The translations under genes and the position numbers were made by a program. DNA of 35,023 nucleotides from an uncultured Bacteroidales bacterium (GTDB taxonomy: Bacteria > Bacteroidota > Bacteroidia > Bacteroidales > UBA932), in NCBI GenBank assembly GCA_947367375.1, contig CANBDZ010000013.1:1-35023 (forward strand). Reading direction: 5' to 3'. This document shows, one piece after another, positions 20,467 to 27,453 of the stretch (position 1 is the first letter of the stretch; each line of letters starts with the position of its first letter). The notes under the pieces are model-generated. The model saw only the letters and a list, made by a program, of their open reading frames with translations. It was not told the origin of the DNA and ran no database searches.

Positions 20467-20928
20467 TTAATCTTCATAAAAGTCATCGTCGACTTCGTCA
20501 TAGCCGAAGTCTGATGCCAGGCGCTCGGCCACATCATCAGGAATGTCGAACGCGAGATTGCCCCAAAGCGAATCCATCTGCCTTCTGTCCTTCTTAGTCG
20601 GACGGCCAGCTCCCCTGTCTCTCTTGAGGAAGAACGTCTCCACTGGAGCGCGAAGCTTGGCGAGTTCTTCGGCAGGAGTAAGGTTCTCTGCATACGTAGG
20701 AACCAGCTTTGCACCCTGCCTCTTGTCAACCAACTCGAGTACTTTATATGTATATACGACAGCTCCCTTGCGGGCTACCAGCATATCCCCGACCTTTACC
20801 GCCTTCGACGGCTTCACATCGACTCCGTTCAGACGCACCTTTCCGCCCTTGCAGGCATCTGTGGCATCGGTTCTGGTCTTATATACCCTTATAGCCCAGA
20901 GATATTTGTCAATCCTTACTTCTTCCAT
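20467..20928 (-). CDS. S4-domain RNA-binding heat-shock-like protein (HslR family)
   Basis: 153 aa; VRIDKYLWAIRVYKTRTDATDACKGGKVRLNGVDVKPSKAVKVGDML. Confidence 0.9.
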   Translation of the reverse strand: MEEVRIDKYLWAIRVYKTRTDATDACKGGKVRLNGVDVKPSKAVKVGDMLVARKGAVVYTYKVLELVDKRQGAKLVPTYAENLTPAEELAKLRAPVETFFLKRDRGAGRPTKKDRRQMDSLWGNLAFDIPDDVAERLASDFGYDEVDDDFYED

Positions 20929-20939
20929 AGGAACTTGCT

Positions 20940-22328
20940 TTACGACTTCATCGATGAGCCGAAGAAGCCGAACGGACTTGCTCCGGACGGTCCCATTTCC
21001 TCCTCATCGTCATCAAGAAGTCCATCCTCAAGTCCTTCATAGTCCTCTCCCTCAAGGAAGGCCTCAGTGTCAGGATTTATATATCCGTCCTGATCCTCAA
21101 CCGGACGTGTGACTGTCTCAAGAATGATAGTCTCCCTGTCGCGCGGAACAAGGAAGAAGTCCGGCATATCAGCAGGAATCATGATGGTCTCACCCTTGGC
21201 GAACTCGTAGTTGTCCATGCACGCCTCGCCCTTTTCGTTGGTCGAAGGCACCTGAACTGACGCCGCACCTTCCACACATATATATACAATGAAGCTTTCG
21301 AACTTTTCTGTATATATGTGAAGAGGGTCTGTGAGGTTTATCTTGGTTACATTGAACTGAGCTGACTCTACCAACGTCTCTGCCACCTGGCCCTTGTCGC
21401 TGTGATGGTGATGCTCGTGGCCACAATGGCACTCGCCCTCGCAATGACATTCGTCGCCGCAATGACATTCGTCGCCGCAGTGGCACTCATCACCACAGTC
21501 ACATTCGCCATGGCAGCCGCAATGACATTCTGTAACATGGCAAGGCTCATATGAAGCCTCATCTCCCCAGAGCGGTCCCTTACGGTAAAGTCCGCTGTCA
21601 AACGGTCTGTAGTCGATCAGGTCAATCGCCTCCTCCAGATGCATGTCACGGGCTGTTGCAGGATTGTGCTCACGTCCCCAATCGTAGAGACGGAAGGTCA
21701 TGTCCGATGACTCCTGGATCTCAACGATGAGCAGACCGGCATCAGCGGCGTGGACTGTTCCAGCCGGAATGTAGATGACGTCACCCTTCTTAGGCTCCAG
21801 TACATTAAGGACCTCCTCAACTGTACCTGCATTGCATCTGTCATAGAACTCCTGGGCAGTCATCTCCTTGTTGAAGCCCACGTACATCTTTGCGCCAGGC
21901 TTGGCGTCCACGACATACCAGAGTTCCGACTTTCCAAGCGAGTCATATCTTTCAGCAGCAATCTCGTCGTCAGCATGCACCTGAACTGAAAGCTTTCCGT
22001 TGATGTCGAGAAGCTTGATCAGGACAGGGAACTGACGGCCGAAGAAGTTATATACATCCTCTCCGACTATCCTCTCGAGGTAGGTCTCCATAAGCTCGCC
22101 GATGGTGTTACCCGCCAGCCAGCCGTTCGAAAGCACCGAATCCTCAAAGCCCATGTCAGCGATCTCCCAGCTTTCACCCACCGGTGTCTCCGGGCCGATC
22201 ACCACTTCGTTGCCTTCCTCGTCGCACTCGACGAAGTTCTTGCCCAGTTCTCTGACAAGAGTACTGCCGCCCCAAGGTCTCCTTGAAGCGACAGGAATAA
22301 ATTTAAAAGGATAAAGTTTCTTCTCCAT
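20940..22328 (-). CDS. manA: Class I mannose-6-phosphate isomerase with Cys/His-rich internal repeat
   Basis: 462 aa; PMI motifs RPWGG, PVLIKLLDINGKLSVQVHAD, KSELWYVVDA, GTVHAADAGLLIVEIQESSDMTFRLYDWGR; interrupted by CHVTECHCGCHGECDCGDECHCGDECHCGDECHCEGECHCGHEHHHH. Confidence 0.93.
   Translation of the reverse strand: MEKKLYPFKFIPVASRRPWGGSTLVRELGKNFVECDEEGNEVVIGPETPVGESWEIADMGFEDSVLSNGWLAGNTIGELMETYLERIVGEDVYNFFGRQFPVLIKLLDINGKLSVQVHADDEIAAERYDSLGKSELWYVVDAKPGAKMYVGFNKEMTAQEFYDRCNAGTVEEVLNVLEPKKGDVIYIPAGTVHAADAGLLIVEIQESSDMTFRLYDWGREHNPATARDMHLEEAIDLIDYRPFDSGLYRKGPLWGDEASYEPCHVTECHCGCHGECDCGDECHCGDECHCGDECHCEGECHCGHEHHHHSDKGQVAETLVESAQFNVTKINLTDPLHIYTEKFESFIVYICVEGAASVQVPSTNEKGEACMDNYEFAKGETIMIPADMPDFFLVPRDRETIILETVTRPVEDQDGYINPDTEAFLEGEDYEGLEDGLLDDDEEEMGPSGASPFGFFGSSMKS
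21423..21512 (-). repeat. 18-bp tandem repeat (about 5 copies) encoding DECHCG-type units
   Basis: GCAATGACATTCGTCGCC occurs exactly twice (21441-21458, 21459-21476), flanked by degenerate copies at 21423, 21477 and 21495. Confidence 0.9.
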
Positions 22329-22329
22329 A

Positions 22330-23670
22330 TTAAAGTCTTGCTCTCAAAGCCTCAGCCTGCTCTTCGTAGCCAGGCTTGCCCAAAAGCGCGAACATATTCT
22401 TCTTGTAAGCCTCAACGCCCGGCTGGTCGAACGGATTCACGCCAAGCATGTAGCCGCTGATTCCGCAAGCCTTCTCGAAGAAATAGAAGAGGGCGCCGAG
22501 AGTGTACTCGTTGATACGCTCGATAGCAAGGCCGATCTGAGGCACTCCGCCGTCGATGTGAGCAAGTTTTGTTCCAAGCTCTGCCATTGCGTTGCACTCC
22601 TCAACGTGCTTTCCTGTGAGGAAGTTAAGACCGTCAAGGTTCTGAGGGTCATTCTCGATGAGCATTGAGCGGTTGCTGTTCTCTACAGTGACTACAGTCT
22701 CCATGAGAGTACGCTCACCATCCTGGATGTACTGACCCATTGAGTGAAGGTCTGTAGTGAAGTTTACAGATGCAGGGAAGATTCCGAGACCGTCCTTGCC
22801 CTCTGACTCTCCGTAAAGCTGCTTCCACCACTCTCCGAGGTAAGTGAGCTTAGGGTTGTAAGCTACGAGGATCTCGATCTTCTTGCCCTGGTTGTAGAGA
22901 GCGTTACGCATTGCAGCGTACTGTACTGCAGGGTTGCACTCGCACTTCTTAGCGCATGCCTCCTCCATTGCGAGGGCGCCCTGGAGCATTGCGTTCATAT
23001 CGAAACCTGCGAGAACGATAGGAAGGATACCTACCGGAGTAAGAACTGAGAAACGTCCACCTACGTTATCCTCGATAACGAAAGTTCTGTAACCCTCCTG
23101 AGTTGCGAGGCCCTTGAGAGCTCCGCGAGCCTTGTCAGTAACAGCTACGATACGCTCAGCAGCCTCTGCCTTGCCGTAAGTCTCCTCGAGATACTTCTTG
23201 ATGAGGCGGAATGCCACTGCAGGCTCAGTTGTAGTACCTGACTTTGAGATCACTACACAAGCTGCATTTCTCTCCTGAACGAGGTCCATAAGCTCGCACA
23301 TGTACTCCTCTGAAAGGTTCTGTCCTGCGAAAACGATCTCAGGAGCGTCACCCTTAGTCTTGAGCTGCTTTGCGAACTGGTGTGAAAGAGCCTCAAGAGC
23401 GCACTTTGCTCCAAGATATGAACCACCGATACCGATAACTACAACGAGGTCAACGTTCTTAGCCTTCCATGAATCTCTTACTGCCTCGCAGTCAGCCACG
23501 AGTGTGCTGTTCAATGTCTCTGAAGGGAGGTGCTTCCAACCGAGGAAGTCGTTACCTGCTCCTGTCTCGTTCTCGAGAACATCAAGGGCCGAAAGGGCCT
23601 TTTCAACATAAACCTTGTAGTCAGCGTCTTTAACGAAAGAGCTGCATCCGCTTAAATTAACTTTTACCAT
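22330..23670 (-). CDS. pgi: Glucose-6-phosphate isomerase
   Basis: PGI motifs VVIGIGGSYLGAKCALEAL, VISKSGTTTEPAVAFR, GGRFSVLTPVGILP, YTLGALFYFFEKACGISGYMLGVNPFDQPGVEAYK. Start set at MVKVNLSG (23670); the ORF-track extension to 23862 covers the promoter region. Confidence 0.96.
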   Translation of the reverse strand: MVKVNLSGCSSFVKDADYKVYVEKALSALDVLENETGAGNDFLGWKHLPSETLNSTLVADCEAVRDSWKAKNVDLVVVIGIGGSYLGAKCALEALSHQFAKQLKTKGDAPEIVFAGQNLSEEYMCELMDLVQERNAACVVISKSGTTTEPAVAFRLIKKYLEETYGKAEAAERIVAVTDKARGALKGLATQEGYRTFVIEDNVGGRFSVLTPVGILPIVLAGFDMNAMLQGALAMEEACAKKCECNPAVQYAAMRNALYNQGKKIEILVAYNPKLTYLGEWWKQLYGESEGKDGLGIFPASVNFTTDLHSMGQYIQDGERTLMETVVTVENSNRSMLIENDPQNLDGLNFLTGKHVEECNAMAELGTKLAHIDGGVPQIGLAIERINEYTLGALFYFFEKACGISGYMLGVNPFDQPGVEAYKKNMFALLGKPGYEEQAEALRARL

Positions 23671-23730
23671 AATATCAAATATTTTATATATTTCTAAGTC
23701 ATGTAATACGCACATATGCGCACAACTCGG

Positions 23731-23738
23731 CAAATATA
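23731..23738 (-). promoter_or_regulatory. -7 element upstream of pgi
   Basis: CAAATATA on + (TATATTTG on -). Confidence 0.45.
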
Positions 23739-23769
23739 ACATTTTTTGCGTAAAAGCTGATAAAATATT

Positions 23770-23777
23770 TATATTTG
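23770..23777 (+). promoter_or_regulatory. -7 element upstream of the GDPD gene
   Basis: TATATTTG, fits TAnnTTTG, about 41 bp upstream of the ATG. Confidence 0.5.
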
Positions 23778-23818
23778 CACACACTAAACGACAATAAACA
23801 CAAACACTGATAGACAAC

Positions 23819-24628
23819 ATGAAGACAATCGCAAAGATCGCATCATTGGCAATGACATGCATGCTCGCATTGCCCCTCGGAGCAAATGCTCAGAAAAAGG
23901 CAGGAATCGTAGCGCACAGAGGTTTCTGGAACTGTGAGGAAGCCGGATTTGCAAAGAACTCAGTAGCAGCCCTCAGAGAGGCTCAGGAAGCAGGATTCTG
24001 GGGAAGTGAATTCGACGTGAACATGACTTCTGACGGAGTACTCATCGTTTACCACGACAGCGACGTAGAAGGAAAGAAGATCGAGAAGCATCCTTACTCT
24101 GAATTCAAGGATTTCAAGATCAAGAACGGAGAGACCATCCCAACCATCGACCAGTATCTTGAGCAGGGCAAGAAGTACCCTGAGACTATGCTCGTGTACG
24201 AGATGAAGCCTCATTCTTGCGATGAAGTAGAGGACAGATTCGTAGAACTCACTATCCAGAAGCTCGAGGAGCACGGTCTTCTCAGCCCAGACAGAGTGAT
24301 GTTCATCTCATTCAGCCTCCACATGTGCGAGGTTCTCGCTCAGAAACTTCCTGAATTCACAGTGCAGTACCTCGGAGCAGACCAGAGTCCTGACAAGCTC
24401 GCTGAGAAGAAGATCAACGGTATTGACTTCAACTACAAGAACTTCTACCTCCATAAGAAGTGGTACAAGATGGCACGCCGCCACAAAATGAGCGTGAATG
24501 CCTGGACAGTGAACAAGGAAGAGGACATGAGAAACATGTTCGAGATGGGCGTTGACCAGCTCACAACAGACAACCCGCTTCAGGCAAGAGAACTCCTCAA
24601 GGAGATGAAGTACGTGGAGCTCAAATAG
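23819..24628 (+). CDS. Secreted glycerophosphodiester phosphodiesterase family protein
   Basis: 269 aa; signal peptide; AGIVAHRGFWNCEEAGFAKNSVAALREAQEAGFWGSEFDVNMTSDGVLIVYHDSD; C-terminal MSVNAWTVNKEEDMRNMFEMGVDQLTTDNP. Confidence 0.95.
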   Translation: MKTIAKIASLAMTCMLALPLGANAQKKAGIVAHRGFWNCEEAGFAKNSVAALREAQEAGFWGSEFDVNMTSDGVLIVYHDSDVEGKKIEKHPYSEFKDFKIKNGETIPTIDQYLEQGKKYPETMLVYEMKPHSCDEVEDRFVELTIQKLEEHGLLSPDRVMFISFSLHMCEVLAQKLPEFTVQYLGADQSPDKLAEKKINGIDFNYKNFYLHKKWYKMARRHKMSVNAWTVNKEEDMRNMFEMGVDQLTTDNPLQARELLKEMKYVELK

Positions 24629-24629
24629 T

Positions 24630-24698
24630 AACGTCATACCCGACACAAGAACGTCATACCCGACACACGAAACGTCATGCCCGACCTGATCGGGCATC
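24630..24698. repeat. REP-like cluster: three AACGTCATxCCCGAC units, the last forming a hairpin
   Basis: AACGTCATACCCGACACAAG / AACGTCATACCCGACACACGA / AACGTCATGCCCGACCTGATCGGGCATC; hairpin ATGCCCGA-CCTGA-TCGGGCAT at 24677-24697. Confidence 0.8.
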
Positions 24699-26505: not shown

Positions 26506-27453
26506 ATGGCTTCACTTGTAAAAGAAATAGGATCTTTCCTGACGGAAAACGGGCTTTCGCACTCTGTCAAAAACGACAGTGGGTGCGAGGTTATCGTCAT
26601 CGACAAGCCGCAGCTGGCCATATTCCCTATCGAGGTGACGGCCGTCACTGCTGAAGAAGCGTTCGTCAAGAGCGAAGAGGAGTGGGAAAAGATAAAGGAA
26701 TATACCGACGTCCACGGCTATCCCGTCATAATCACTGAAGACAGGTGGAGGAGCGACACAGGGGCGCTCAGGAACAGGCTTCTGGCACATATGAGGCAGC
26801 ACGTCCAGGTATATGCCAGGAACTGTGAGGTGAGGCGTATTGAGAAGATGGAGGCGGCCGCGTTTCTTGCAGAGCATCACTCCTATGGCAACGCATCCTG
26901 CAGGTACCATTACGGAATGTTTCTGAAGAGGCACACCGGGCACAATGCCGACGGAGGCGTCGGCTGGCCTGAGCCGGGCACACTGGTAGCGGTGGCGCAG
27001 TTCTCCAATGCCCGCAAATGGCTCAAGGGAAACAAGGAGATACGCTCATACGAGTGGACTCGCTATGCATCCCTTTCAGGAGTGAGGATCAGCGGTGGCA
27101 TGGGAAGGATGCTGAAGACTTTCATAGAGGATGTAAAACCCGATGACATAATGAGTTATGCAGACCTCGAATGGTCTTGGGGAGATGCCTATTCACAGTT
27201 GGGATTCAGTCTTGAGGGGCAGAAGGAGCCGGTGACTTTTGTGGTTGATGAACAATGGAGGAGATCCCCGGTCAAGCCGGGGATGCCGGCAAAGGCTGAG
27301 AACGCCATTGCCGGCGTGACCGGGGAAAAAGAGAACGTCATTGCCGGCGCGACCGGGGAAAAAGAGAACGTCATTGCCGGCGTGACCGGCAATCTGTTCT
27401 TCAGAAACTTCGGCAGCAACAAATACCGCCTGAAACTGACGGATTACGAATAA
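26506..27453 (+). CDS. Protein resembling the nuclease/GNAT-like accessory regions of Hef-type homing endonucleases; function unknown
   Basis: 315 aa from ATG 26506. C-terminal half: [20 protein letters not shown]…[13 protein letters not shown]…[60 protein letters not shown]-terminal ITEDRW… segment. Family assignment is from memory of the pattern. Confidence 0.6.
27263..27390 (+). repeat. In-frame REP-like hairpin plus 33-bp tandem repeat inside CDS 26506..27453
   Basis: ATCCCCGG-TCAAG-CCGGGGAT hairpin (27264-27284), then GAGAACGYCATTGCCGGCGYGACCGGGGAAAAA at 27298-27330, 27331-27363 and partial 27364-27390. Confidence 0.88.

Follow-up and report, generated by a model that had tools for sequence, protein, structure and literature searches.

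A Cys/His-rich insert in a Bacteroidales phosphomannose isomerase as a possible built-in metal reservoir or cis-chaperone

The window analyzed here, a stretch of 35,023 nucleotides from an uncultured Bacteroidales bacterium, encodes a phosphomannose isomerase (PMI) that carries an internal segment unusually dense in Cys and His. The locus raises the question of what such a segment does within an enzyme of sugar metabolism, and whether it serves the metal site of its own host. The features concerned are as follows.

20940..22328, minus strand: class I phosphomannose (mannose-6-phosphate) isomerase, 462 aa (TIGR00218, PF20511, PDB entry 1qwr by sequence and fold, residue alignment)
21402..21542, minus strand: Cys/His-rich insert, PMI residues 263-309 (open reading frame [ORF] translation, TRF, composition statistics, low AlphaFold confidence of about 50)
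20943..21401, minus strand: C-terminal cupin-like part of PMI, residues 310-462 (Pfam, AlphaFold)
22330..23862, minus strand: glucose-6-phosphate isomerase (PGI), directly upstream of PMI (ORF)
20467..20928, minus strand: S4-domain RNA-binding protein, directly downstream of PMI (ORF), which we take from family knowledge to be Hsp15-like

Apart from the insert, the window protein is, as judged by sequence, an ordinary class I PMI with predicted isomerase activity. It scored above the cutoff for PF20511 (36.6 bits versus 22) and slightly below that for TIGR00218 (107.7 bits versus 116.2; E value, 7e-31), and it matched the Bacillus subtilis PMI (PDB entry 1qwr) by both sequence and fold. In alignment with the family, Q116, H118, E135, H193, and R213 were intact; based on family knowledge and 1qwr, we take the first four to be zinc ligands and R213 to be the catalytic Arg. 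Both marks of a class I PMI, the catalytic-domain profile and the set of zinc ligands with the catalytic Arg, are present. The B. subtilis enzyme shares the fold and catalytic residues but has a short linker at the insert site. The gene order PGI-PMI-S4 is kept in the nearest relatives (L072 and L073), and the S4-domain gene adjoins the long PMI throughout the genus. The longest PGI ORF overlaps the start of a divergent glycerophosphodiester phosphodiesterase-like gene (23819-24628, plus strand). Because relatives align only from about residue 40 to 65 of the PGI, its true start probably lies further in than the first ATG.

ORF translation bore out the count of 14 Cys and 12 His in about 47 residues given in the initial annotation, which had also located the segment correctly and drawn it slightly too wide (21391-21546 rather than 21402-21542). 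The 47-residue insert, CHVTECHCGCHGECDCGDECHCGDECHCGDECHCEGECHCGHEHHHH, is built of tandem (G/E)(D/G)ECHC units with HEHHHH at the end. Of the 35 Cys and His residues in the window PMI, 26 fall within a 48-residue stretch, against an expectation of 1.0 given the remainder of the protein (hypergeometric P = 5e-22). TRF independently found an 18-bp tandem array at the insert. Two neighboring units are identical in DNA, which points to a recent duplication, while the remaining units differ through synonymous codons; the copy number is young, and the residues are not. AlphaFold modeled the protein with a mean pLDDT of 86, with low confidence at residues of about 270 to 310 (about 50) and in the acidic C-terminal tail. 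Taking low confidence as disorder, the insert is predicted to be an intrinsically disordered linker between two ordered parts, the catalytic part and the C-terminal cupin-like part.

Relatives were sought within the genus in 400 genomes, of which 81 gave a match at an E value of 1e-70 or better. The relatives' genomes are metagenome-assembled genomes (MAGs) of uncultured Bacteroidales, several from herbivore gut or feces. The main clade, with moderate support (SH-aLRT, 88), comprises 39 PMIs; 35 carry Cys/His inserts (3 to 14 Cys and 4 to 18 His), and four have no insert or only a remnant. All 35 insert-bearing members are catalytically intact, and the zinc-ligand residues are intact in every member of the clade. 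These related segments dispose of the concern that the insert might be an artifact of a single assembly. Insert length and repeat number vary, and copy number differs even between close relatives. Insert composition is 23% His, 22% Cys, and 17% Glu, versus 1.6% His and 1.3% Cys outside the insert. The PMIs of the order's other families have short linkers and no insert.

Where dS was unsaturated, pairwise dN/dS across the insert ranged from 0.01 to 0.13, figures that are indicative because repeats align imperfectly. Most Cys and His residues were kept, many of them changed only synonymously; between L001 and L046, all 16 of 16 were retained, six with a synonymous change (dN, 0.01; dS, 1.65). 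Purifying selection on the insert is therefore well supported at the sequence level. When the insert columns were excluded from tree building, eight changes were needed to explain the Cys/His label. The simplest reading would be that the insert was gained once in the main clade and lost about three times, and that L079/L097, L124, L125, and L017/L208 gained theirs separately, although long branches leave the exact placement of some of these rows unsure. At least four further Cys/His-rich inserts thus appear to have arisen at the same linker site, differing in sequence and alike in Cys/His bias. The enzyme is intact in L079/L097; the other three inserts sit in paralogues with degraded catalytic residues (e.g., T-C-K-H replacing Q-H-E-H). 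Metal-binding-like repeats seem to have been recruited repeatedly to a single position in a household enzyme, also in paralogues whose catalytic residues have been lost.

Several known systems resemble the insert in part. The SlyD tails of Escherichia coli and Helicobacter pylori bind several Ni or Zn ions (PMC7055735). Like the insert, the SlyD C-terminal tail is a disordered segment with abundant Cys, His, Asp, and Glu that varies among species, and near-identical peptides occur on SlyD of this genus; in SlyD, however, the segment forms the end of an FKBP prolyl isomerase, whereas the present one is internal to a sugar isomerase. The window protein is not itself a SlyD, as its only Pfam matches are to PMI and cupin profiles, with no FKBP domain. 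The His-rich loop of COG0523/CobW GTPases and the His-stretches of HypB and UreG are likewise metal-binding low-complexity loops. Such stretches on HypB, UreG, and COG0523 have been taken as signs of metallochaperone function, and that of UreG occurs where UreE is absent (PMC2770081), a pattern resembling that of the insert without COG0523. In contrast to the COG0523 loop, the insert has no accompanying GTPase domain, contains more Cys, and is carried by the presumed client enzyme instead of by a chaperone. COG0523 membership, which entails a GTPase domain with a GCxCC motif, does not apply, since the host domain is PMI. Metallothioneins share the dense CxC motifs, but the insert lies within a large enzyme and has about as much His as Cys; assignment to that family was rejected (Pfam Metallothio_5 E value of 1.4, 9.5 bits versus a cutoff of 25; PDB E value of 0.57). 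Some bacterial Cu,Zn superoxide dismutases have a His-rich N terminus proposed to help metal acquisition. This is also a metal-binding extension on the metalloenzyme itself, differing in being N-terminal, His based, and part of a periplasmic enzyme.

The likeness extends to the peptides themselves. Besides PMI, pattern searches of the genus matched two SlyD tails (e.g., EEGHECHCGEEGHECHC) and, in two genomes, the loop of a COG0523 GTPase (DEHECHCHEEGHECHCHDHDDDDD). Near-identical HECHCHEEGHECHC-type peptides thus occur on three unrelated proteins of one genus (SlyD, L209 and L212; COG0523, L210 and L211), with different synonymous codons. Because the same peptides (HECHCHEEGHECHC) sit on SlyD tails and COG0523 loops, both known metallochaperone families, metal binding by the insert is very likely by analogy. 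The string HECHCHEEGHECHCH recurs unchanged in the COG0523 proteins of genomes G234 and G249, and the SlyD of the window genome ends in CGGCHGGGCSGGCHGGDDCGCEDGDCGCGCH. Together with the occurrence across species, the absence from PMIs of other families, and the selection on the residues, these peptides leave the initial proposal of a metal-binding-like insertion in PMI well supported on sequence grounds. Outside the genus, an ECHC..ECHC pattern searched in 396 genomes of the phylum recovered only the window and one match with a spacing not divisible by three, and the insert as query against plasmids gave no match. A deoxyribose-phosphate aldolase from an uncultured Bacilli MAG (L084, 4341-5084, plus strand) ends in a similar Cys/His tail, DDECDCGDECHETEHKCRCGKCHCHHDE. 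A large calcium-binding-repeat-like protein of Campylobacteraceae containing GECDCGDECMCGDEC (L083) was judged to be an isolated look-alike. In the open-licence literature, we found no paper linking PMI to metallochaperones or describing such an insert.

We also compared the distribution of the insert with that of COG0523, scored as full-length PF02492 GTPases (genome G005, which has a broken match, was scored as having one). A full-length GTPase was missing in 39 of 41 insert-bearing genomes, including all 37 with an intact enzyme, and present in 38 of 50 insert-free genomes. It was absent from every main-clade genome (39/39), which genome incompleteness cannot explain, and from G392, G334, G298, and G266; in G298, the sole PF02492 protein is a short one, similar in size to UreG or HypB. 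G392 and G334 represent a second intact-enzyme insert origin, also without COG0523. Among insert-free genomes outside the main clade, 38 of 46 have the GTPase and eight lack it. Most of the full-length GTPases carry the His-rich loop. Insert and GTPase occur together in G025 and G091, whose PMIs are degraded. This group of gut bacteria, many of which come from ruminants and other herbivores, has a PMI loop usually without the metal-delivery GTPase common in its relatives.

Fisher's test of the association gave an uncorrected P of 1e-12. The association is strongly confounded by phylogeny and comes mostly from one clade: of eight independent pairs, two to four point in the same direction and none in the opposite one (P = 0.125), and a rough binomial over the five insert origins gives 0.004 for an idea formed on part of the same data. 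The four intact main-clade members without the insert still have no COG0523. Since they have neither, neither is essential. We regard compensation of COG0523 loss by the insert as a lead, not a result. In genome G293, an intact PMI gene is preceded, 25 bp upstream and on the same strand, by the gene for a COG0523 GTPase that has no His loop (L274, 19-978 and 1003-2118, minus strand).

Our preferred reading, with a rough probability of 0.5, is that the insert is a SlyD-tail-like, built-in metal reservoir or cis-chaperone, one that may have made the GTPase chaperone easier to lose. It would be a disordered metal-binding segment of the SlyD-tail/HypB/COG0523 His-loop type that expanded through duplication of repeats in the linker joining the catalytic and cupin-like parts, and its Cys-His-Cys units most likely bind several divalent, zinc-like ions. 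As a local reservoir or cis-chaperone, it would keep the only PMI detected in the cell loaded with zinc; in the first sample, no second canonical PMI was found in insert-bearing genomes. It would also add to the cellular metal buffer. The full-length GTPase is missing where the insert-bearing enzyme is intact, and the insert may have made an external chaperone less needed. The initial annotation had likewise suggested that the segment could store metal for, or deliver it to, the active site of its own enzyme. This fits the main clade but not the inserts on paralogues without a zinc site, and four intact members have lost the insert; in L017, L208, L124, and L125, whose catalytic residues are degraded, an own-active-site role is impossible. 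A bolder version holds that PMI has internalized its own metallochaperone, the insert replacing zinc delivery by a COG0523 GTPase with PMI as the client and permitting GTPase loss in several lineages, while in other lineages PMI paralogues no longer capable of catalysis came to carry metal-binding inserts. We consider this unlikely as a whole. To our knowledge, the clients of many COG0523 metallochaperones are unknown, and the insert without the GTPase, plus the G293 gene pair, makes PMI a testable candidate.

The main rival is a metallothionein-like sponge on an abundant housekeeping protein, buffering or detoxifying metal in general and unrelated to the PMI active site. The same paralogues without a zinc site would suit it, as would the Cys-rich CHC units, a weak and nonsignificant metallothionein resemblance, and the tail on the unrelated Bacilli aldolase. 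In the main clade, however, the insert accompanies an intact, apparently sole PMI, and no metal-resistance genes were seen in the immediate neighborhood of insert-bearing PMIs; we hold the sponge to be possible but doubtful, with the local zinc reservoir or cis-chaperone the best single account. A regulatory switch, in which metal on the insert alters PMI activity or assembly and ties mannose metabolism to metal status, has a precedent in SlyD, whose isomerase activity is reversibly inhibited by metal on its tail (PMC7055735), and the insert does lie between two ordered parts. Its length and sequence are nevertheless highly variable, its loss is tolerated, and it has no predicted structure. 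We found no evidence for the sensor role or the coupling of sugar metabolism to metal status raised initially, and we rate the switch as improbable. Neutral low-complexity expansion, by slippage or an in-frame GTCATTGC-type repeat, would account for the two identical adjacent 18-bp units, the differing copy number among close relatives, and further GTCATTGC-like repeats in the window. It is already disfavored, and very improbable, given the low dN/dS, the Cys and His retained at near-saturated synonymous sites, and independent inserts that differ in sequence yet share the Cys/His bias.

Elsewhere in the window, tandem repeats at 27298-27396 (33 bp, GAGAACGTCATTGCCGGCGTGACCGGGGAAAAA) and 24630-24685 (20 bp, AACGTCATACCCGACACAAG) resemble dispersed REP-type elements. 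Beyond it, L017, L208, L124, L125, and about 30 more tree rows are PMI paralogues with H118, E135, or R213 replaced, and this large group of the genus apparently consists of pseudoenzymes. Most of the degraded copies checked still adjoin the same S4-domain gene. Where the S4-adjacent copy is degraded, the genome has a second PMI copy at another locus that retains the catalytic residues; the full set was present in 12 of 14 second copies fetched from genus genomes, and one more had a single unreadable residue. Genome G337 encodes two long, catalytically intact PMIs on separate contigs (G337:C2:192675 and G337:C14:59905).
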